Source of the DNA: a virus
DNA: 20,265 nt
Reading direction: 5' to 3' (one strand)
IMG/VR virus record: IMGVR_UViG_3300031707_004467
Coordinates: 1 to 20,265 of that record
Part shown: piece after piece, positions 645 through 16,413 of the stretch
How the letters are laid out: each line of letters begins with the position of its first letter
Numbering within the stretch: the stretch's first letter is position 1
Program-made: the position numbers and the translations under genes
Notes under the pieces: generated by a model
The model's database searches: none
Seen by the model: the letters and a program-made list of their open reading frames with translations, nothing else
Told to the model about the DNA's origin: nothing

Positions 645-2497
645 GTTCTAAACCACCTTTCTTTCCGCGGACCACCCTTCTTACCATCTTCGGCAGAAGA
701 CTTCGCGCGATGAACGTGATTCGATGCTTCAAGAGCCTTCAGCGTTGATCGAATCATATAATCCGAGAACTCAGGTAGACCTTCGAGCAGCTGTTCTACT
801 GTCAATCCTTCTGGAGCTGCCTCGAGCAATTGTAACAACTTCAAGGAACTGTCAACAGCTTGTGAGCCCTTGACCATTTCCGCATCTGAGACTTCAACCT
901 CGTATCTCTCTGCTAAGTCGAGGAAGCGATATGACCAAGTAGTTCCTCCTGCTGACTTGAATTCAGACTCGACCGAGACCCAACCCTCTGCATTTGGACG
1001 ATCCCCTTTCAGGTACAACGTACCCTCCGAGAACGCATGAAATGCCATCGAGCCGTAGGAGGACTTCGAGTCACCCGCACCCTTCGATCGATGATGAACG
1101 AGAATCACCGAAGACTTCAATTCGGTCTGGATAATCTGAGCTGTTGCGAAGACGCTGTTCCCGACCTCAGAAGCTTTAAACTCATCTACATCTTCGAGCA
1201 TTCGAAGAGTAGGATCGAATATGACCAAAGCTAGACTCCCATGCCGTTCCTTGATTTCACGCAACCAAGCTAAAAGGTCAGCGGTATCCTTTGCGGTGAA
1301 GAGGAACTCTCTCGAGAGATCTAAGTACAACGGGAGGTGAATCTTCGGGAAGAAGACATCTGGGAGACTCACACGACCCCCCAAGCCTTTCGAAATCAAG
1401 ATCTTCTGAAAGCGGTCCTGCAGAAGGTAATCGGGGTCTTCTTTCGTAATGATGACGACCGGGCCGGCTACAGGGACCTCGAACTTCCCGAGAAATGGTT
1501 TGCCAGAAGCAACTGAGATTCCCATATCAAGGGCTAACCAGGACTTCCCCATCTTGGGAGCTCCAACAATCATCCCTACGGACTCCGCCAGTAGAGTCTG
1601 ATTGACAAGCCATCGACCTTCGCGAACTGGGGTCTCGAGAAATGTATCGAGCGAAGCTCTAGAGACTCGACGAGATCGTTTCCTCATCGTCTGATCGATC
1701 AGATGATCGATTAGTCGTGTCATCTCTTTGACATCATGGACTCGTAACCAGACATCGCGAAGATCTTTCTCACCACAGAAGGGGTCAAGTATCTTTGATA
1801 GCTCGCATGAGATTGGGACTATTCCCTCTTCGAGACACAACTCTACAATAGACTCTTGAGACTTCTGACCTGCTTCGTCGTAGTCGAACAGGAAGACAAT
1901 TTCGCGGACGCCGAGAGTCTTAAATTGAGCGAAACTGCGATCTAGATTCGGAGTCTGGGCTCCCTTCGTAACACCGAAGGCTGTTAGACCCAGATGCTTT
2001 AGAACCCCGCAGTCTGATTCTCCTTCAGCTAAGAAGATGCGAGAAGCAATGGTGCTCGGAGGGTCAGGCCAGAGAGGAGGTGTAGCTGCGCCTTGGGGAT
2101 ACCAGGAGTAGACTTTACCTCCGGCAGCTCGAAGCTTAGTGACTGAAGATCGCTCCCAAGTGAACTGAATGTTCTTGTCGTCAAAGACAACACCCCATGA
2201 CTCCCACTCAGCAGTAGGGACTCCAGTGTAGCTTTCCCACCATTCCGATGCGGATGTGGATACCGTAGGGGAGATTGTCGAGATTGAGATCGGTGTAGGA
2301 GTATCGAGCATCTTCACAATGTCTCCATAAGAGCATCCTGCAAAGCAATGAATGAGAACCCCTCCGTTGGAGGACTCGGTTATTGACAGCGAAGCTTTGA
2401 CATCGGCATGAGCAGGACACTTCGCAGAATACCCATTACCTGCTGGAGTAACATCTTCGAGGTGCTCCAGCCACCACGCGAGGGATCTCTTATCCAT
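641..2497 (-). CDS. DNA primase-helicase (CHC2 zinc finger, TOPRIM, RecA/RepA-like ATPase)
   Basis: This is a replication protein of 618 residues that should lay primers and unwind the fork. Domains seen in order: an N-terminal zinc-binding module with C27, H30, C51 and C55, in the style of DnaG zinc fingers; a TOPRIM domain with LAEGESD (156-162) and FDYDEAG (204-210); then a RepA/DnaB-like ATPase. The ATPase has Walker A GAPKMGKS (312-319), Walker B LVIFDP (424-429) and a VHHRSKG segment (467-473) typical of RepA-type helicases. The C-terminal 70 residues look like a winged-helix region. The start overlaps the polymerase stop as TAATG, so the two replication proteins are translated together. 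It is an analogue of T7 gp4, but with a hexameric RepA-type motor. The domain calls are strong; strand polarity cannot be read from sequence. Confidence 0.9.
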   Translation of the reverse strand: MDKRSLAWWLEHLEDVTPAGNGYSAKCPAHADVKASLSITESSNGGVLIHCFAGCSYGDIVKMLDTPTPISISTISPTVSTSASEWWESYTGVPTAEWESWGVVFDDKNIQFTWERSSVTKLRAAGGKVYSWYPQGAATPPLWPDPPSTIASRIFLAEGESDCGVLKHLGLTAFGVTKGAQTPNLDRSFAQFKTLGVREIVFLFDYDEAGQKSQESIVELCLEEGIVPISCELSKILDPFCGEKDLRDVWLRVHDVKEMTRLIDHLIDQTMRKRSRRVSRASLDTFLETPVREGRWLVNQTLLAESVGMIVGAPKMGKSWLALDMGISVASGKPFLGKFEVPVAGPVVIITKEDPDYLLQDRFQKILISKGLGGRVSLPDVFFPKIHLPLYLDLSREFLFTAKDTADLLAWLREIKERHGSLALVIFDPTLRMLEDVDEFKASEVGNSVFATAQIIQTELKSSVILVHHRSKGAGDSKSSYGSMAFHAFSEGTLYLKGDRPNAEGWVSVESEFKSAGGTTWSYRFLDLAERYEVEVSDAEMVKGSQAVDSSLKLLQLLEAAPEGLTVEQLLEGLPEFSDYMIRSTLKALEASNHVHRAKSSAEDGKKGGPRKERWFRT

Positions 2498-4953
2498 TAG
2501 AGTTCTCTCATATCACCCCAACGCTTCCCGATCTTGATGTCAACCTTCAACGGGATGTCGAAGATTGAGCCTTCGGGAAGAGCCCTGCAGACCTCCATCG
2601 TCGACTTGATTGTTGGGATCCACTCTTCGACCAATTCGTCGGGGATGAGAAACAAGATTGAGTCATGCACTGTCGAGATGATTCTGATTTCTGGGGGAAG
2701 AACATGTGCATGCAGATAGATCAGATTCGTCAAGCAGATATCCGAAGCCAGAGACTGAACTGGAGAATTGACACCCTTTCGTTCCATCAGGAAGGCGGTG
2801 TCTCTCATCATCAGGGGGAATCTTCGACGTCGACCCACCGGTGTCTCTACATAGCGTTGAGCACGAACGAGACGATGTTGTCGATCGATCCAATCCCGAA
2901 GACCCGGGAAGCCATTCAGAAAGTCCGACAAGAACTCTTCGGCTTCTTTGAGTGTCCATGGCGTGCCTCCCTGCTCTACAACATAATCCATCTCCCAGCC
3001 CTCGGCCAGAGACTTAGCTCCTCGCCCATAGATGATACCGAAGTCAACATACTTCGCCATGTATCGTTCTAGCTGAGTGATTTGAGCAGCAGGCTTCTTA
3101 AACATCGCCGCTGCAACCTCACGATGAATATCCCGACCTGTCCTGAAGATTGCTGTCATATTGAGGTCGCGAGAATACCAGGCTACTACCCGGAGTTCGA
3201 GCTGAGAATAGTCTCCTTCAGCTAGGACATACCCCTCAGGTGCCTCGAAGCCATCACGAACAATTCGACCCATTAGGATCGGGATGTTCTGAAGGTTTGG
3301 GTCTCGGCAGGATAGTCGACCTGTGTCTGCTCCTGTAAGCAGGAAGTCTGGGTGGACCCGACCATCGACCTGTCGGTCCAACAGACCAACCATGTAGGTC
3401 TGAAGTACCTTCGATTTCTGACGATAGTCCATCAACGTCGTCAAGAACTGTTTGACGGTCTCGGAAAGCTTTAGATGACGTTTGAGGAATGAGTTTACGA
3501 AGTCTCGTTCTGTCGACTCAAGTTCGACACCCATCCCAGCCATCACCTTCTTGATCTGAATGGGTGAGGCTGGGTTCAAGTCGTCGACCTCATACTCCTT
3601 AGCGATTGCCTTGAGTGTCGCCGAATATCCTTCGAGCTCTTTGATGAGCTTTTTTGACTGCTTCTCGAAGTACTTGATGCTAATTGGGAACCCTTCACGT
3701 TCGATCTGAGCAAATGCACAAGCTCCCGGAACGAGAACATTATTGACGAGACTCATCAGCTTGGGCGACTCTTCCATCAGTTCGCCGAGGAGATCGAAGT
3801 ATAGACGAATTGTACAATAGCAGTCCATCGCATGATAGATGTAGAGTGTCTCCCAAGGTCTCTCATCGTAAGGGATTTCCAGAAACTTGTCGAAGTTGAA
3901 ATGGTAGTCTGGGATGTCATATCGAATACGAGCCTGATCCTTCAAGCCTAGACCTTGAAAGCCTCGACCTGTGTTTGCATCTCCGGATCCTCGCTCATCC
4001 CGTGCATACTGCATCAACATCGTATCCCCTACATTGGCAGGCTCGAAGTCTACATCGAGCCAAGATTGAAAGAATTGTAGATCGAACTTGCAGTTATGAA
4101 ACACTGTGAGCCTCTTCGGGTCGTTCACAAGTTCGAGGATTGACTGAGTCACAATTGAGGTGTCTGCAAAATCAATCGGGATGATAACAGCAAGACCTTG
4201 GAGTGTGTTATCCTTATCAATCGCCCCAAAGCCAACCGAGAAGATCTCCCCCTTCAGGAAGTCGAACCCTGAGGTCTCTAGGTCGCAGGATATCACAGAC
4301 GCTGTCTTGAGGTAGCTGAGATATTCGACAGCAGACTCAGTCGAATCAGCAATCAAGATAGTAGTCTCTGGAGCAGGGAGGGGGGCAAAGTTGATGAACC
4401 ACTTTTGGATATCTGCAGAAAAGTCTCTGAAGAGATCTGGGGTTCGAGTTACAGCCGCAGGGTGGAAGGTGGGGACGAGATAAGTCTCACACTCATCCTC
4501 GACATCTGATTCACCTATGTAGGGCTTGACTGCATGCTTCCACATCATTCCCTGTCCTCGAACTTTTGTGATAGCGGTGGTCTTTCCTGGGGAGAGTAGA
4601 GCCGAAGCCGCAATCCCCCCAACTGTCAGGATCTTGGTTGGGGAGACATCGTAGAGTTCTTTCATCAATCGATCTGCACAAGCGTTTTGAGCTGTCTGCG
4701 ACGGGGTCTTGTTGTCAACAGGTCTGCACAGACAAACGTTTGTGTAGTAGACATTCTCTGATCCAATCCCGACAGCATCGAGAGTTGATCGAAGAAGCTG
4801 ACCCGAGACTCCAACAAAGGGCTTCTTCTGAACGACTTCAGTAGCTCCTGGAGCCTCTCCTATAACTGTGGGGGCGTTCTTGGGACCGACCCCGTAGACA
4901 GGTGGACAATCCTTAAGTGGACATTTTAGACAGGGTTCGTAGTCTGATATCAT
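2497..4953 (-). CDS. Family-4 uracil-DNA glycosylase fused to DNA polymerase I (family A)
   Basis: This 818-residue fusion should be the phage replicative polymerase. Residues 1-190 form a family-4 UDG. They show GEAPGATE (32-39), FVGVSGQLL (46-54), FHPAAVTR (163-170) and cysteines C8, C11, C76 (or C74) and C92, placed like the 4Fe-4S ligands of this family. Residues 195-395 are a 3'-5' exonuclease with DLE (224-226), D291 and Y373/D377. The polymerase follows, with motif A DYSQLELR (581-588), motif B R630-K634-F638-Y642 and motif C VHDS (762-765). All catalytic positions I can check are intact. The start has a GGGAGG site and lies 41 bases inside the end of the dpdA-like gene. A glycosylase that removes uracil on the replicase itself is notable in a phage that appears to modify its bases. 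Confidence 0.92.
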   Translation of the reverse strand: MISDYEPCLKCPLKDCPPVYGVGPKNAPTVIGEAPGATEVVQKKPFVGVSGQLLRSTLDAVGIGSENVYYTNVCLCRPVDNKTPSQTAQNACADRLMKELYDVSPTKILTVGGIAASALLSPGKTTAITKVRGQGMMWKHAVKPYIGESDVEDECETYLVPTFHPAAVTRTPDLFRDFSADIQKWFINFAPLPAPETTILIADSTESAVEYLSYLKTASVISCDLETSGFDFLKGEIFSVGFGAIDKDNTLQGLAVIIPIDFADTSIVTQSILELVNDPKRLTVFHNCKFDLQFFQSWLDVDFEPANVGDTMLMQYARDERGSGDANTGRGFQGLGLKDQARIRYDIPDYHFNFDKFLEIPYDERPWETLYIYHAMDCYCTIRLYFDLLGELMEESPKLMSLVNNVLVPGACAFAQIEREGFPISIKYFEKQSKKLIKELEGYSATLKAIAKEYEVDDLNPASPIQIKKVMAGMGVELESTERDFVNSFLKRHLKLSETVKQFLTTLMDYRQKSKVLQTYMVGLLDRQVDGRVHPDFLLTGADTGRLSCRDPNLQNIPILMGRIVRDGFEAPEGYVLAEGDYSQLELRVVAWYSRDLNMTAIFRTGRDIHREVAAAMFKKPAAQITQLERYMAKYVDFGIIYGRGAKSLAEGWEMDYVVEQGGTPWTLKEAEEFLSDFLNGFPGLRDWIDRQHRLVRAQRYVETPVGRRRRFPLMMRDTAFLMERKGVNSPVQSLASDICLTNLIYLHAHVLPPEIRIISTVHDSILFLIPDELVEEWIPTIKSTMEVCRALPEGSIFDIPLKVDIKIGKRWGDMREL

Positions 4954-5776
4954 CAGTGCCTCCCGAGACGACTGCGTCGAATACTTCGATGTTCTTTCGA
5001 ACGATTACAAGCTGTTCTTTAGAAAGTTCGGTGATGAAATAGTACTTGGATCGTTTAGGGTATGTCGGGGAGGGCTCTGCAGGATCGAGTAGGATCTTCG
5101 CTGCCCCATAGACCATTGGCTTGGCTGAGTCGATCGACCTAATTCGATCTCCGAAATCTTCGACGATCTGACGAAGTGCCCAAAGATCACGACCCCACCC
5201 AAGAAGATGAATCTGAACGTCAGGGAGAGTTGCTGCTACTGGGAGAACAGTCTTCTCTAGAAGACGATGCATCCCACCTTCCCACAGCTCGTAGTCTTTC
5301 GAGACACCAATTGTGGGGAGGAAGTTCAACGGGAATGCCGTCTTCTTCTGCGCAGCAAGAAATTCTTTGATCAGACCCTGAAGACAAAGCGAATACTCGA
5401 GGAGAGAGTTCCCTTGAGCTACGAGCATCATTCGGGGTATGGGGGTCATCTGATAAAGCCTCTTCTCGTTTGTCACGAAGAATTGAAGAGCTTCTCGTGT
5501 ACGACGAATCGTGTCGTCACTGTCGAACAGATGATCTGGGCAGACGATCTCGGAGACTCCAAGCTCTTCGGCCTGCGATAGAAGAGTTGCAGCAGCCTCC
5601 CCGAACTGTCGTTCGTGAGCTGAGTTGTCCAAGATGAGGTATGCACCTCCCAGAGACTGGGTAGCATAGAATCTCTTGTACGCCGGGATGTGCAGTAAGT
5701 GTGATAGAAGTAGGAGGTACTTCCGACCCGCTGCTAATTCAAGATTCGGGATCGGGGGGATGATAGTTGATATCAT
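4913..5776 (-). CDS. dpdA: DpdA-like DNA guanine transglycosylase (7-deazaguanine insertion)
   Basis: This 287-residue protein resembles the tRNA-guanine transglycosylase superfamily as found in phages (DpdA), which swaps guanine in DNA for a 7-deazaguanine base. Seen: YLILDNSAHE (46-55), with D50 as the likely general base; a CPD segment (79-81); LVAQGNS (118-124); a base-pocket-like HLLGWG (190-195); and RSIDSAKP (213-220), whose D216 fits the nucleophile of TGT enzymes. At 287 residues it is shorter than tRNA-acting TGT (about 370-390), and I see no C-terminal zinc site of the tRNA enzyme, which favours the DNA-type family. It overlaps its upstream neighbour by ATGA, has an AGGAGA site, and is followed directly by the polymerase gene. 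QueF and a precursor transporter nearby support the assignment. I do not assign the DpdA subfamily. Confidence 0.8.
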   Translation of the reverse strand: MISTIIPPIPNLELAAGRKYLLLLSHLLHIPAYKRFYATQSLGGAYLILDNSAHERQFGEAAATLLSQAEELGVSEIVCPDHLFDSDDTIRRTREALQFFVTNEKRLYQMTPIPRMMLVAQGNSLLEYSLCLQGLIKEFLAAQKKTAFPLNFLPTIGVSKDYELWEGGMHRLLEKTVLPVAATLPDVQIHLLGWGRDLWALRQIVEDFGDRIRSIDSAKPMVYGAAKILLDPAEPSPTYPKRSKYYFITELSKEQLVIVRKNIEVFDAVVSGGTDDIRLRTLSKMST

Positions 5777-6456
5777 GATTGTCTCCTGAATGGAATGACG
5801 TCTTTGAGTAGATACGATTCTACCAGGTTCGTCTTGATCTCGTGAAGATATGTGGGAATCCCGAAGTAGGACGCCCAGAAGTCATATCGATCGAGGATGT
5901 GAAGGTCTCTCTGTAGCTCTACAGGATCCCACTCGTAGGGCTCAGTATAGACACATTGAGCAGACTCTTCCCAACGCCAGGTTCGGGAGAAGCCTTTCTT
6001 CTTGAGCACCATCGTGGTATCAACATACTTCGAGATCTGAATGCGAGCCGATGCGTGACAAGCAAGTGGGTGATTCGGCCAGACGCCGCACCCAGTCGAT
6101 GATTCGAGAGGGCACGAGCTATGAGGCTTAGTGAGTGAATAGAATGCCTTCTCGTCGCCATCGACCCAAATAGACCTCTCTTCGAACTTGGCTTTGACAT
6201 CGAGAGGAAGTCGCGTCCATTCTACCTCACCTGGGACATAGTCAAGTGTCAATGGCCCAAACGATCTGCAACAGGCACGACACCCTGAAGTGCAAATGAA
6301 CTTGCGGAAGATCGACGGACCGATCTTGACATAGTCATTCGAGACTAGTCTCTCAGCAATCTTCCCGACACTGGCTTCAACTACTGTATGATTTCGGGAA
6401 AGCTGAACAAGATGTCCGAGTTCACGAACTACTGTATAGGAGAGGGCTAGAGTCAT
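5773..6456 (-). CDS. CxxxCxxCC metal-cluster protein (YkgJ-like)
   Basis: This 227-residue protein has a cysteine-cluster domain in its middle. The first motif is CTSGCRACC (C55, C59, C62, C63). It is followed by the second half with C115, C123 and LACHAS (C133, H134), the layout of the YkgJ family thought to bind zinc or an iron-sulphur cluster. The flanks are helical and not recognised. I chose ATG at 6456, which overlaps the preceding stop as ATGA, rather than GTG at 6462. The stop overlaps the dpdA-like start in the same way, so the two proteins are probably made in step. This coupling makes it a candidate partner or tailoring enzyme for the 7-deazaguanine pathway, but nothing in the sequence shows the chemistry. 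Confidence is high for the domain and low for the role. Confidence 0.75.
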   Translation of the reverse strand: MTLALSYTVVRELGHLVQLSRNHTVVEASVGKIAERLVSNDYVKIGPSIFRKFICTSGCRACCRSFGPLTLDYVPGEVEWTRLPLDVKAKFEERSIWVDGDEKAFYSLTKPHSSCPLESSTGCGVWPNHPLACHASARIQISKYVDTTMVLKKKGFSRTWRWEESAQCVYTEPYEWDPVELQRDLHILDRYDFWASYFGIPTYLHEIKTNLVESYLLKDVIPFRRQS

Positions 6457-6728
6457 GACCACTTCTTCTTCTGCAAGAAGGCCAGGAGGAACCCACAGTA
6501 GTTGATGATATCCTGAACTTCCATGCGAACCTTGTCCATCTCGCCATGCATCTCGTACCCAACGACCCTTGCTGCCTTCGTGAAGATCATGAAGGCTAAG
6601 TCTGCTGTCTTGTGAGGGAACATTTGATCGATAGCAACGATGTCGTTCTCTCCAGCATCAGTGTGAATCTGAATGATTTTCTGGCATTCTGAGATTTCTT
6701 CTTGTACGACTTCAATGAAGCTTGGCAT
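6453..6728 (-). CDS. Small helical protein, MazG/NMAD1-like
   Basis: This 91-residue, almost wholly helical protein ends in QKKKWS. The pattern HKTADLAFMIFTKAARVVG followed by EVQDIINYCGFLLAFL resembles the nucleotide-modification-associated domain 1 (DUF1599) and MazG-like all-alpha folds. There, a K-x-x-R helix is followed by an acidic helix ending D-I-x-N-Y. Proteins of this kind are found beside thymidylate or base-modification genes in phages, which fits this position. The start at 6728 has a strong AAGGAGG site. The stop overlaps the next gene as ATGA. The metal-binding acidic set of true MazG pyrophosphatases (ExxE...ExxD) is not clearly present, so hydrolase activity should not be assumed. 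The family call is tentative. Confidence 0.55.
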   Translation of the reverse strand: MPSFIEVVQEEISECQKIIQIHTDAGENDIVAIDQMFPHKTADLAFMIFTKAARVVGYEMHGEMDKVRMEVQDIINYCGFLLAFLQKKKWS

Positions 6729-6799
6729 AGCAGATCCTCCTTGTAGGACAGGTTAGGACACATTCGTTCGACGATCCTGGTATCTTCATACCCCAGGAG

Positions 6800-6874
6800 T
6801 GGACCCTCGAGGAGTCGAACCTCGATCGCCTGCGGGAGGACAGGCCATCTCCCAAGTCTTGAAAGTAAGGGCCC
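6800..6874 (-). tRNA. tRNA-like gene with non-standard anticodon arm
   Basis: A 75-base element has a perfect 7-bp acceptor stem (GGGCCCT with AGGGTCC, one G-U) and a textbook T arm (CGAGG, loop TTCGACT, CCTCG), with A as discriminator. The CCA is not encoded. The rest is odd. The D arm can only be drawn as TTTC/GAGA with a 9-base loop ending in GG. The anticodon stem GCCTG/CAGGC closes an 8-base loop (TCCTCCCG), or a 6-base loop if a T-G pair is added. No T33 falls in the right place in either form, so I cannot name the amino acid. A glycine (CCC or TCC) origin is possible. It may be a degenerate or specialised tRNA, or a tRNA mimic. Confidence 0.5.
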
Positions 6875-6877
6875 ATG

Positions 6878-6899
6878 CTGTCCCACTTTCATGGGACAG
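6878..6899 (-). other. Stem-loop between transporter gene and tRNA-like element
   Basis: A perfect 8-bp stem (CTGTCCCA with TGGGACAG) and a 6-base loop lie 10 bases after the transporter stop and 4 bases before the tRNA-like element. No T-run follows, so a classical intrinsic terminator is unlikely. Its place just upstream of the tRNA 5' end suggests a processing or spacing element. A similar arrangement stands before the tRNA-Met. Confidence 0.45.
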
Positions 6900-6908
6900 G
6901 CAGTACAT

Positions 6909-7547
6909 CTAGATACTTGCTTCGACTTTCTTGACCCAATTGACTGCGAGATATGTAAGTGGAGTCGCAAGAGCTTCATACGACGTCTTGAATGCCCAGG
7001 TCGACAGAGACATTGCAATCACTGCTGAGAATGGGATCACTCCTGTGAACGCGATGATCGCGAAGATGAAGGAATCGACACCCTCACCGACGATAGTGCT
7101 TCCAATAGTTCGTATCCACAGAAATCGAGTGCCTGTCAGCTCCTTGATCTTGACGAGTGTCCAAGCATTCACATTCGAGCCAATTAAGTAGGCAATGAAT
7201 GACCCGACGAGCAGTCGGGGTGTGAAGCCCAGAACTACCTTGAAAGCCTCCTGACCAGTCCAAAACCCTGGGGCAGGTAGCTGCAAGCATATCAGGAAGA
7301 ATACGACAGCGAACAGATTGGCAGCGAATCCTATGAGGATTGCTCTACGGGCTACCTGCAGACCATAGACTTCAGGAATGACATCCCCGACGATATACAC
7401 AATCGGGAACAGAAGTTCGGCTGTAGTCAGAATCAGACCGAAGGGAGCCGCCCAAAGCTTGCCCGCGATGATGTTCGAGACCACTAGGGCCACCGAACCG
7501 AGAACGACCAAGACGATGAGCAAAATCGAGAAACGTTTGTGCAACAT
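6909..7547 (-). CDS. yhhQ: Queuosine precursor transporter (YhhQ/QPTR, VUT family)
   Basis: This 212-residue integral membrane protein has about six hydrophobic segments (roughly residues 6-26, 34-52, 70-90, 107-123, 149-170 and 175-195). Family marks seen: FPIVYIVGDVIPEVYG followed by an R pair near residues 47-67, and the later IGSTIVGEGVDSFIFAI, both typical of the VUT/DUF165 family. Members import preQ0, preQ1 or related 7-deazaguanine bases, and the length matches YhhQ. I chose ATG at 7547 because an AAAGGAG lies 10 bases upstream; a longer open frame to 7682 lacks support and overlaps queF. It sits just after queF and four genes before polymerase, with dpdA nearby. It should act in the host inner membrane to bring in the precursor that the phage cannot make from genes seen here. 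Confidence 0.85.
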   Translation of the reverse strand: MLHKRFSILLIVLVVLGSVALVVSNIIAGKLWAAPFGLILTTAELLFPIVYIVGDVIPEVYGLQVARRAILIGFAANLFAVVFFLICLQLPAPGFWTGQEAFKVVLGFTPRLLVGSFIAYLIGSNVNAWTLVKIKELTGTRFLWIRTIGSTIVGEGVDSFIFAIIAFTGVIPFSAVIAMSLSTWAFKTSYEALATPLTYLAVNWVKKVEASI

Positions 7548-7600
7548 TTGAGTAATCTCCTTTAAGTAGTTTTGGATGGGTTGTCTACGACCATAGGTGC

Positions 7601-8059
7601 TCAGCCTAACATGAGAGCTGGTTCCTCCCTGTCGATCTTGAAGTCGGCGAGAGAGACAGGTAGAATAGATCCCTTGATCCAAGCTGAGGCTCGAATCCCT
7701 ACCCCACCGCGAGGAGTCTGGATAACAATGACTCCGATAGACTTCGCGTCAAGAACTTCCTGCACATCGTGAGCAATCTCGCTCGCAAGGGCTTCGCAGA
7801 AGGTTCCCTTCTCGCGAAATGTCATCAAGTATAGCTTCAGACTCTTCGACTCGAGACACTTGGTGTTAGGTCGATACGAAATCTCGACCGTCCCGAAGTC
7901 GGGCTGCCCAGTGACAGGGCAGAGAGAAGTGAATTCATGTGTCGTCATGACGACCTCGTCTACACGGTCGGGGGTCGTAAAAGTCTCGAGATGCTTGATT
8001 GCACCCCGAACATTCTGACCTAATGCATGAAATTGGTTACTCGCTGATGACGGTAGCAT
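7601..8059 (-). CDS. queF: NADPH-dependent preQ0 reductase, QueF type I
   Basis: This 152-residue protein has the length of the short (Bacillus-type) QueF, which reduces the nitrile of preQ0 to the aminomethyl group of preQ1. Seen: TSLCPVTGQPDFGT with the thioimide cysteine C47 and acid D54; the NADPH-binding QueF motif ESKSLKLYL (70-78); and FREKGTFCEA with E89. In the Bacillus subtilis enzyme the residue before that glutamate is H96; here it is C88. The intact QueF motif argues for a reductase rather than the QueF-like amidinotransferase of archaea. ATG at 8059 has AAAGGAG 5 bases upstream and lies 23 bases inside the end of the acetyltransferase gene. In this context it most likely serves DNA modification rather than tRNA queuosine. 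Confidence 0.88.
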   Translation of the reverse strand: MLPSSASNQFHALGQNVRGAIKHLETFTTPDRVDEVVMTTHEFTSLCPVTGQPDFGTVEISYRPNTKCLESKSLKLYLMTFREKGTFCEALASEIAHDVQEVLDAKSIGVIVIQTPRGGVGIRASAWIKGSILPVSLADFKIDREEPALMLG

Positions 8060-8693
8060 ATGAGCTCCTTTCGAGCATCTCCCGAAGTGCGGGAATGAGA
8101 TCGAGAGCCTTGCTCTCTTTCTTCAGATACAGCTCCATGTTCTTCGCCCAGAGATCTGCAGTGTAGGGATTCGTCTTCAGCTCGATGTGAAAGCCCGTAG
8201 GGCATCGCATATAGATATTCTCCCAAGCTAGATCCCAAAGCAGGGAGAGCTGATATAAGAAGATCGACTTCTCTGAAGCAGTTCGATGAACAAGCTCTCC
8301 AGCGAGACGAAAGCCCATCGTCGGTAGAGCAACCTTCTGAGCTTCGTTATCGCCGACGATGGTATCTTCAACCAACCGACGACCTTCGAGAACAGCTTGT
8401 GCAACGGCTGTGAAGTACAACACTGTCTCTACCCGCTTCCGACGGTATTCGGGGAGAACACCCACGTGACCGAGCTTGACCATGTGACTCTGGGGGCGAC
8501 CCCCGAACATGTGAGCCCCAACAATCTTACCATCGAGCTCTGCTACCCAAAGAGATGGGCGAACCTTGATGCAGTCGCGAATCTGATCCCTCATTGTGAA
8601 GCCACCGAGACCGGCAATGATGTCGGGATGATTGAAGAGATTCTGGATCGTATCCAGGTCTTCGACTTGACCAAATCTGACATTCAAGTTCAT
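8037..8693 (-). CDS. GNAT-family N-acetyltransferase
   Basis: This 218-residue protein has a GNAT domain in its first 150 residues. Seen: WVAELDGKIVGAHMF (beta2-beta4, residues 49-63), motif A HVGVLPEYRRKRVETV (76-91) in the place of the acetyl-CoA loop, and a C-terminal half of helices not recognised. The usual Q/RxxGxG/A loop is degenerate here (RRKRVE), so cofactor binding should be tested. ATG at 8693 has a strong AGGAGG and overlaps the stop of a 53-residue gene as ATGA. The substrate is unknown. Directly followed by queF, it is a candidate to acylate the primary amine of preQ1 or of preQ1-modified DNA; host-protein acetylation is an alternative. Domain call firm, role inferred. Confidence 0.78.
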   Translation of the reverse strand: MNLNVRFGQVEDLDTIQNLFNHPDIIAGLGGFTMRDQIRDCIKVRPSLWVAELDGKIVGAHMFGGRPQSHMVKLGHVGVLPEYRRKRVETVLYFTAVAQAVLEGRRLVEDTIVGDNEAQKVALPTMGFRLAGELVHRTASEKSIFLYQLSLLWDLAWENIYMRCPTGFHIELKTNPYTADLWAKNMELYLKKESKALDLIPALREMLERSSYATVISE

Positions 8694-8851: not shown

Positions 8852-8864
8852 TCCATGCTCCTTG

Positions 8865-8937
8865 TTGCGGGGGATAGATTCGAACTATCGACCTCAAGGT
8901 TATGAGCCTAGCGAGCTGTCCTCTGCTCCACCCCGCA
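8865..8937 (-). tRNA. tRNA-Met (CAT anticodon)
   Basis: A complete 73-base cloverleaf. The acceptor TGCGGGG/CCCCGCA pairs in all seven positions and the discriminator is A. The D arm is GAGC/GCTC. The anticodon arm is CTAGG-CTCATAA-CCTTG with one T-T mismatch, the T arm is GATAG-TTCGAAT-CTATC, and the variable loop is five bases. The CCA is not encoded. The anticodon stem lacks the three G-C pairs of initiator tRNA, so this is an elongator type. A tRNA-Ile with modified CAT is a formal alternative. All the ATG-starting proteins around it would use methionine, but I see no special codon need. Confidence 0.93.
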
Positions 8938-14517: not shown

Positions 14518-14618
14518 GTGGGCACCCCGACGGTGAGGTGCATCATGTACTGATCCACCTCGATCATCTTGCGGATGAGTATTACATACAGTAGAAGATG
14601 AAATAGTTGAAGAATCAT
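14499..14618 (-). CDS. Small hydrophobic protein, 39 aa
   Basis: ATG at 14618 overlaps the methyltransferase stop (ATGA), with AAAGGA upstream. The product begins MILQLFHLLLYVILIRKM, a likely single membrane segment, then an acidic and a polar part. It ends 19 bases inside the following gene. It is too short for homology by eye. Reality rests on the coupled start, ribosome site and filling of what would otherwise be a 97-base gap in a gene-dense block. It could instead be a leader that helps translation of the next gene. Confidence 0.5.
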   Translation of the reverse strand: MILQLFHLLLYVILIRKMIEVDQYMMHLTVGVPTCPRSK

Positions 14619-15388
14619 GAGTGTCCTTTCAATGCTGCTCTCGAATAGAACTTGCGAAGTGTTTCGGGCTTCGTCCAGCGAGTGTAGGGTGTCTTCTCGT
14701 CCTTGAGAAGAATCTTCCCGTCGTGCGTGATAAACAAGATGTGATAGATGCTCAGTGATTTCGAAGTATAAAACTTGTCTCCGAGATGAAATTCTTCTAC
14801 AGCGTCGAGAGATGTCGCAGGTGGGACTCGTCGATCATCGACTTCTAACCCGATGCAATCCCAGCCCGGGCGAGATCGCCTAGCAAAGACTTCTAGATAC
14901 GGCCCAGGGAGACTCTCTGCATAGATGTGAAGGCTCTCGGGCTTTCGCGAATGAGGGAAGTTCGGGGAGATGAGACCTAGCCATTGACTCTCGAGCGGGG
15001 GACGAGCTAACCCTCTACGCCCGATGAGAATTGGTTCGGAGCATCCCCGAGCCCAGAACCCCAGCCCGTATGCTATCCCATTCCCTGTAGTCGTAAGCTT
15101 GACCCATGGGAAGCCTGTAACATACTTGAAGTCCCATGCTTCGAGAGCTCTCACCGAGATGGTGAGCTTTGCCCAGGTCGTCCACAGAAGCAAGACGGCA
15201 TCGTCTGCAACAAAGTCCTGCAGGTTCAACCCTACGATCTCATCATCGTGAAGCGTCGAGTAGACTTCCGCAGACGACCCTGGGGCTTGATTCTCATAGC
15301 CCCAGGGAGGATCTACGATAAGTACTCGATACGCATTACCAACTCTAGATCGTAACTGAGCGTCTCGAATGTCTCCGAGAAAGATCAT
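14615..15388 (-). CDS. MT-A70-family adenine methyltransferase with C-terminal extension
   Basis: This 257-residue protein belongs to the MT-A70 family (N6-adenine methylation of DNA or RNA, SAM as donor). Seen: the catalytic VDPPWGY (25-31), LLLWTTWAKL, GFWARGCSEPILIGRRG and HSRKPESLHIYAESLPGPYLE, then GWDCIGLEV, all in the family order. About 70 residues after the family core hold LGDKFYTSKSLSIYHILFIT and a basic tail, not part of the usual domain. ATG at 15388 overlaps the DUF932 gene stop (ATGA); the longer frame to 15547 lies inside that gene. Phage members often methylate adenine in phage DNA to avoid host restriction. The target site is unknown. Confidence 0.87.
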   Translation of the reverse strand: MIFLGDIRDAQLRSRVGNAYRVLIVDPPWGYENQAPGSSAEVYSTLHDDEIVGLNLQDFVADDAVLLLWTTWAKLTISVRALEAWDFKYVTGFPWVKLTTTGNGIAYGLGFWARGCSEPILIGRRGLARPPLESQWLGLISPNFPHSRKPESLHIYAESLPGPYLEVFARRSRPGWDCIGLEVDDRRVPPATSLDAVEEFHLGDKFYTSKSLSIYHILFITHDGKILLKDEKTPYTRWTKPETLRKFYSRAALKGHS

Positions 15389-16413
15389 GAGCGTTTGGCT
15401 GCTCGGGTAGCATAGTCGAAGACGACTGAGTAAGCACGTTCGATTGCTGCTCCTCGCGCCCCAACCAGAACGGATTCTCCACGCGCCTGAACATTCGTAG
15501 TCCGGCGCCAATTCTCCCACTCTGCAACTGCGTTGTAGAACCCCCAACCAGTTCCGCTGCAGGCCTTGACTTCGAGACCTGTTCCCCTACCGTCGAAGAG
15601 TTCACGAACGGCCTGTCGTGATCGATCGAGTGTCTCGACAGTTGATGCATAGTACTCGAGACGTCGGGAAGAGAGGCCGAGATCGACTTCGGGGTCGTCC
15701 GGCTGACCGGGAGTAAGTGGGTAAGGGTAGACGTCTTCGATCATGTTCATGACAGTGCGTACAGAAGGAGAGTAGGATGCAAACATGTCAAATGCTTGCT
15801 GCAGAGTCTCAGTTCGCTGCTTCGCTCGACCCATCATCCCTGCCATCCAATTCGCTAAGCGCTTACGAGCATTGACATCGTGAGTGACGCGATAGACTTC
15901 AGTAGCCGCACGAGCTGCGGCACGAAGTGTGTTCTGACAAACTGGACGCTTGGGGGTGACCATCGTCTTGATGGATGCATTCCCAATATAGGGAGAAGTG
16001 AGAACCAGATAGTTCTCAACCAAATCGCCCTTCACGTCCAGATCGGGCAAGTGCACTGACATGAACAACGTCTCGCCCTTGCCGAGAGACCCCAGAGTCT
16101 GAATTGGAGTCTGAACAGCGTTGTCGAAGATTTCACAAATCTCCTGCGGCTCAATCAGGACGTAATCGTTGCCGATGACACCGAAGATACGTTCGATTGG
16201 ATCGTCGGGAACAGGTTCGCGTACAATCGCCCGGAAGCCCGAGTAGTCGTACTTTCCGTTCTGAAGCTTCAAGAACAGGTCTGACATCCGAACCGAGTAG
16301 GGCGTCATTCGACCCCAGGCCTCAGCTGCAGTCATGGGGACTTTGGAGATCTCTCCGAGGTCGTGCCACTCTGGGCGTGTAGAGAAGAAACGTTCGTCAA
16401 ATAAATCGTGCAT
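15385..16413 (-). CDS. DUF932 / phage-plasmid TIGR03299-family protein
   Basis: This 342-residue protein belongs to the DUF932 family, common in phages and plasmids and without settled function. Seen: an N-terminus with WHDLG and the PMTAAEAWGRM segment, YVLIEPQEICEIFDNAV, then TLGSLGKGETLFMSVHLP, VENYLVLTSPYIGNASIKTMVTPKR and the VCQNTL motif (all family marks, in order), followed by a helical C-terminal half. ATG at 16413 has GGAGGTGCGAG directly upstream. It starts the chain of overlapping genes that runs down to the SNF2 helicase. Proposed roles for the family include DNA metabolism; nothing here decides it. Confidence 0.82.
   Translation of the reverse strand: MHDLFDERFFSTRPEWHDLGEISKVPMTAAEAWGRMTPYSVRMSDLFLKLQNGKYDYSGFRAIVREPVPDDPIERIFGVIGNDYVLIEPQEICEIFDNAVQTPIQTLGSLGKGETLFMSVHLPDLDVKGDLVENYLVLTSPYIGNASIKTMVTPKRPVCQNTLRAAARAATEVYRVTHDVNARKRLANWMAGMMGRAKQRTETLQQAFDMFASYSPSVRTVMNMIEDVYPYPLTPGQPDDPEVDLGLSSRRLEYYASTVETLDRSRQAVRELFDGRGTGLEVKACSGTGWGFYNAVAEWENWRRTTNVQARGESVLVGARGAAIERAYSVVFDYATRAAKRS

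Follow-up and report, generated by a model that had tools for sequence, protein, structure and literature searches.

Among phages that encode the DNA-guanine transglycosylase DpdA, those of the 'third group' of Hutinet 2019 have no genes for the synthesis of preQ0 (7-cyano-7-deazaguanine), and the use of host preQ0, or its uptake, was already suggested for them (PMC6884629). Some phages carry the transporter YhhQ, its presence showing no correlation with any phage group, and dPreQ1, the DNA form of preQ1 (7-aminomethyl-7-deazaguanine), was measured in the DNA of Streptococcus phage Dp-1 (PMC6884629). In Enterobacter phage EC151 (Seuratvirus), a preQ0 transporter lies within the dpdA cluster, in addition to the de novo genes folE, queD, queE and queC, all of which are retained (PMC8310023). 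We analysed a linear virus record of 20,265 bases (IMG/VR record IMGVR_UViG_3300031707_004467, positions 1 to 20,265, hereafter the window). Like the third group phages, it has DpdA and, within the DNA at hand, none of the de novo genes; unlike them, it has QueF and YhhQ in the DpdA operon, and a sister phage, G008, shows the exact slot of the missing genes. The transporter lies within the dpdA cluster as in EC151, but here it stands alone, and it is G008 that is the counterpart of EC151. As in Dp-1, the operon is of the QueF type. We consider it likely that this is a phage 7-deazaguanine DNA-modification operon supplied by salvage, and that the de novo block was lost after yhhQ had been gained. 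As far as the literature shows, what is new is an operon that joins transporter, QueF and DpdA but has no de novo genes, coupled with a sister genome that locates the missing block.

Judged by G008, the window is probably a piece of about 20 kb from a phage of some 54 kb; its close relatives are three contigs (G001 to G003), of which the largest, G003, has 35.7 kb. The operon lies on the minus strand, flanked by a recombination/replication block and by a polymerase fusion gene, in the order GNAT, QueF, YhhQ, 91-amino-acid protein, PF03692-like cysteine-cluster protein, DpdA, UDG-PolA. It is tightly packed, with overlaps between several genes, and a clear purine-rich ribosome-binding site precedes every gene except that of the cysteine-cluster protein. 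The original prediction, made from the DNA letters, had placed QueF, YhhQ and DpdA close together; all three were found where it put them, on the minus strand and with ribosome-binding sites, although its list was short by two operon genes, the PF03692-like one (5773-6462) and the GNAT one (8037-8693). The central features are as follows.

4913 to 5776, minus strand: DpdA, DNA-guanine transglycosylase of the CP220/immuto-like subfamily, 287 amino acids (structure model, profile, fold, conserved residues)
7601 to 8059, minus strand: QueF, nitrile reductase converting preQ0 to preQ1 (TIGR03139, Pfam QueF, motif residues)
6909 to 7547, minus strand: YhhQ/COG1738 queuosine-precursor transporter, predicted importer of preQ0/preQ1, 212 amino acids (TIGR00697, Vut_1)
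6729 to 6908: junction, the slot of queD-queE-folE-queC in G008, empty in the window, with a hairpin and the remains of a tRNA-like element
2497 to 4953, minus strand: fusion of uracil-DNA glycosylase (UDG), 3'-5' exonuclease and family A DNA polymerase (PF03167, PF01612, PF00476)

The DpdA sequence of the window alone had no match in Pfam or NCBIfam; without a direct family match, the protein was assigned via its relatives, a profile and its fold. By tblastn, matches at 24-27% identity were found in Campylobacter phage CP220, Youna2 and BSP7 and in Flavobacterium phage immuto, where the gene is annotated as a DNA guanine transglycosylase. By alignment and tree, the CP220 and immuto enzymes (about 25-27% identical) are of the window's subfamily, to which Cui et al. 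2023 reportedly gave the name DpdA3; immuto, unlike the window, has de novo genes. The UDG-PolA fusion immediately downstream of dpdA served as a synteny anchor: in Youna2 and BSP7 the dpdA match also stands directly before PolA, next to queC, queD, queE and folE, and polA was within 8 kb of dpdA in 26 of the 77 further dpdA loci that a scan of IMG/VR yielded outside the window's clade. Alignment of 46 DpdA sequences showed L49-D50-N51-S52, E55, H190, G193 and D216 to be invariant, D50 (in LDNS) and D216 (in SID) being the predicted catalytic aspartate pair.

The best PDB sequence for the 46-member profile was 7ui4, a DNA-guanine transglycosylase (E 3e-5), with the SID motifs aligned. The AlphaFold model of the window protein (pLDDT 91.3, pTM 0.89) has the barrel of tRNA-guanine transglycosylases (TGTs) and the D50/D216 pair, the two structural features on which the original prediction had staked the identity of this gene. 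On this model, the product is DpdA with a TGT-type (beta/alpha)8 barrel. When the model was searched against PDB folds, TGTs came out on top and the solved DpdA 7ui4 at rank 9; in BFVD the best match was an unnamed protein of Cellulophaga phage phiST, and several phage queuine tRNA-ribosyltransferases were among the matches. TGT and DpdA share a common fold, and such a ranking could also be read as an operon that acts with queuosine precursors on host or phage tRNA, not on DNA. We regard this as very improbable, for the transglycosylase groups with phage DpdAs and adjoins a replicative polymerase, and, among PDB sequences, the family profile matches 7ui4, which acts on DNA, but no tRNA TGT.

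QueF scored well above the cut-offs of NCBIfam TIGR03139 (109.1 bits against 86.9) and of the Pfam QueF family (74.8 against 27.3), and keeps Cys47, Asp54 and the ESKSLK-type NADPH motif (E70-K75). YhhQ was likewise clear, with 119.6 bits for TIGR00697 (cut-off 50.95) and 5e-48 for Pfam Vut_1; its start was set at ATG 7547 by relatives and ribosome-binding site, the open reading frame itself opening at TTG 7682. With NF008406, an equivalog model of narrower scope, it scored 44 bits, below the cut-off of 252, which says nothing on the substrate either way. In E. coli, YhhQ is required for salvage of preQ0 and preQ1 (PMC5372724). The YhhQ of phage MS1 is 45% identical to that of the window; MS1 differs in having the full de novo genes and another DpdA subfamily, and no cysteine-cluster protein was seen in the stretch examined. 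Deducing the host from YhhQ kinship was rejected, the best bacterial matches (about 46-54%) being scattered across many phyla. The record MT836020.1, labelled 'Bacteriophage sp.', was also rejected as a phage case of QueF together with YhhQ: its genes are bacterial, and it resembles a bacterial chromosome with a YhhQ-QueC-QueF operon.

The absence of folE, queD, queE and queC from the window, already part of the original prediction, was borne out by family searches. In the window and in G001 to G003, profile searches gave no match to the QueC, QueD and radical-SAM families, and the sole match to the FolE family (PF01227) was QueF itself; custom profiles found no de novo genes across all 35.7 kb of G003. 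Of the related dpdA loci outside the clade, 60 span 9 kb or more; one or more de novo genes lie within about 8 kb in 54 of these, and yhhQ in none of them. Because the window is a fragment, absence of the four genes there proves little, and the argument is carried by comparison with the sister phage. G008, a contig of 53,650 bases found by a search with the GNAT protein, has the operon GNAT-queF-yhhQ-queD-queE-folE-queC-p91-cysteine cluster-dpdA-polA, where p91 is the gene of the 91-amino-acid protein. Across the operon, protein identity to the window is 59-77% (DpdA 67%, YhhQ 63%). With NCBIfam, QueD and FolE of G008 were above cut-off, QueE and QueC slightly below theirs.

The DNA past yhhQ in the window and in G003 aligns with the DNA past queC in G008, over a tRNA-like element and the stretch that leads up to p91 (score 96 for window against G008; at most 33 in 50 shuffles), so that the four genes are absent as a unit. 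The tRNA-like element is decayed in the window (about 6797-6879, minus strand), and its G008 counterpart follows queC. ARAGORN called it neither in the window nor in G008; in G002 and G003 it reported a tRNA-like gene with a four-base anticodon (ctcc) between yhhQ and the 91-amino-acid gene (L010:1217-1290 and L013:4190-4263). It could still be that the de novo genes were not lost and sit in the unsequenced part of the window's genome: with G008 as a yardstick, about one third of the genome is absent from G003, and Vibrio phage PVA23 has its QueF gene far from that of the cysteine-cluster protein. We find this quite improbable. The que genes of G008 are confined to the operon, with none elsewhere in its 53.7 kb, structural half included; the junction in the window is clean, its sequence matching that of G008 past queC; and the distantly related G004, whose 53,173 bases include terminase and major head protein genes, also gave no folE, queD, radical SAM or queC family match.

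In the DpdA tree, which did not include G008, the window's clade stands beside three loci (L025-L027; supports 98/87 and 97/94). Loss in the window's clade is more likely than gain in G008, though not proven, since these nearest relatives carry de novo genes and the que genes of G008 are similar to those found in other members of this phage group. G004 has the same order as the window: queF-like, yhhQ (57% identical), small protein, dpdA (28%), UDG-PolA. Its QueF-like protein (L128:7630-7986) is without the ESKSLK motif and is perhaps not a nitrile reductase, so that its chemistry may differ. Its branch in the DpdA tree is too long to place, and one origin of the salvage state can thus not be distinguished from two. 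Two further contigs, G006 and G007 (22 and 46 kb), have yhhQ, queC and another DpdA subfamily, with no queD, folE or radical SAM match: there QueC stands without its substrate pathway.

In the mechanism that we propose, YhhQ in the host membrane would import preQ0 (or preQ1), or the host pool would be used; QueF would reduce preQ0 to preQ1, and DpdA would swap guanines of replicated phage DNA for preQ1. The PF03692-like protein would probably methylate the aminomethyl group, the product being dPreQ1 or its N-methyl derivative. The ancestors would have made preQ0 themselves, gained YhhQ at a time when queD-queE-folE-queC was still present, as it is in G008, and later lost the block cleanly. By analogy with related modified phages, the modification may confer restriction resistance (PMC6884629).

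Several points weigh against this scheme. Neither the window nor any of its three close relatives is a complete genome, and all lack the head and packaging module, which leaves room for relocated de novo genes. The direction of change, loss here or gain in G008, rests on tree neighbours, with G008 itself outside the tree. The substrate of YhhQ (preQ0, preQ1 or queuine) is not readable from its sequence, and in a host that makes preQ0 the transporter would enhance the supply without being needed for it. This last point leads to another explanation, in which host-made preQ0 is used and YhhQ merely tops up the pool during infection, the phage being dependent on its host rather than on import. Most hosts of DpdA-only phages do make preQ0 (PMC6884629), and both EC151 (PMC8310023) and G008 pair the transporter with all de novo genes. 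Nevertheless, YhhQ has been retained here without the de novo block, at 63% identity to G008 and 57% to G004, whereas none of the 77 other related dpdA loci has yhhQ within 8 kb, and we hold this explanation to be rather unlikely. The original prediction had let the phage either import preQ0 or take it from its host. Salvage feeding DpdA and QueF, from either of these two sources, is still the best reading, given the DpdA fold and the slot that is empty compared to G008.

The remaining operon genes are the following.

5773 to 6462, minus strand: PF03692-like (YkgJ-type) cysteine-cluster protein, candidate preQ1 N-methylase (DpdM-like)
6453 to 6728, minus strand: 91-amino-acid protein, perhaps DUF1599/MazG-like (DUF1599 at E 0.059 only)
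8037 to 8693, minus strand: GNAT-family acyltransferase, 218 amino acids (PF00583, 4.6e-7; ribosome-binding site at ATG 8693)

The first of them has a CxxxCxxCC cluster, and C57, C61, C64, C65, C125, C135 and C170 are invariant among 19 sequences of its family. PF03692 was matched by 17 of the 19, mostly weakly (best 9e-8), and the window protein alone was under the Pfam cut-off (15.7 against 23 bits). Relatives adjoin QueF and DpdA in Cellulophaga phi3ST:2, Mycobacterium phage Knocker and Pseudanabaena phage Pan1. These three phages resemble the window in having the three genes close together, and differ in their full or nearly full de novo genes, another DpdA subfamily and, in the stretches examined, no YhhQ. 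At least 20 of the 27 phage records with the family are also among the QueF matches listed, and que or dpdA genes lie within 8 kb in 16 of 20 further viral loci of the family.

Cui et al. 2023 reportedly described DpdM, a phage dPreQ1 methylase of unusual fold, with mdPreQ1 as the base, which we take as a lead only. Judged by sequence and genomic company, the cysteine-cluster protein is probably a preQ1 methylase, and the predicted base is methyl-preQ1. FliB, with a similar cysteine motif, is a [4Fe-4S] methyltransferase for lysine, a primary amine (PMC8598068), which argues for methylation over a second role, that of a helper protein of the iron-sulphur or zinc type for QueF or DpdA, with the base staying plain dPreQ1. 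The latter is doubtful but a real possibility: the PF03692 annotation says only putative metal-chelating, and the AlphaFold model is weak (pLDDT 65), its fold search giving no solved match. A PDB sequence search with the family returned weak, chance-like matches only.

The GNAT frame reaches back to TTG 8816, and the gene overlaps the queF start by 23 bp. The protein is 77% identical in G008; relatives were absent from 50,697 phage records, and in viral contigs there were four only, all of the window's clade. Coupled to queF, it may act on the preQ1 amine as well, or on another target. A bolder scheme would have salvaged preQ1 tailored by both a [4Fe-4S]-type methylase and the QueF-coupled GNAT, after the de novo block had been deleted as a unit following transporter capture, giving an undescribed 7-deazaguanine such as N-acyl or N-methyl-N-acyl preQ1; we think this improbable. 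The 91-amino-acid protein stands beside dpdA also in G008 (67% identical) and, more weakly, in L030 (3e-6) and G004 (local match, E 5e-5).

Directly upstream of the GNAT gene is a tRNA-Met (8864-8937, minus strand), kept in relatives; an Rfam scan of the window had a tRNA as its sole credible match and showed no preQ1 riboswitch. Two other loci, 14615-15547 of the window (minus strand) and L010:7572-8195, stand for an MT-A70 adenine methylase and, in G003, an N4/N6 DNA methylase (PF01555), the window copy of which is seemingly truncated by the left edge. These two further DNA modifications may add to 7-deazaguanine.

The series formed by these phages, with de novo genes only, de novo genes plus YhhQ, and YhhQ only, suggests how a phage can give up a pathway of four genes and come to rely on imported bases. 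It makes the salvage suggestion for DpdA-only phages testable, in a specified operon and with a predicted base, and it brings broad genomic support for a cysteine-cluster partner of QueF and DpdA. If this is true, the host's supply of queuosine precursors would limit the protection of phage DNA.

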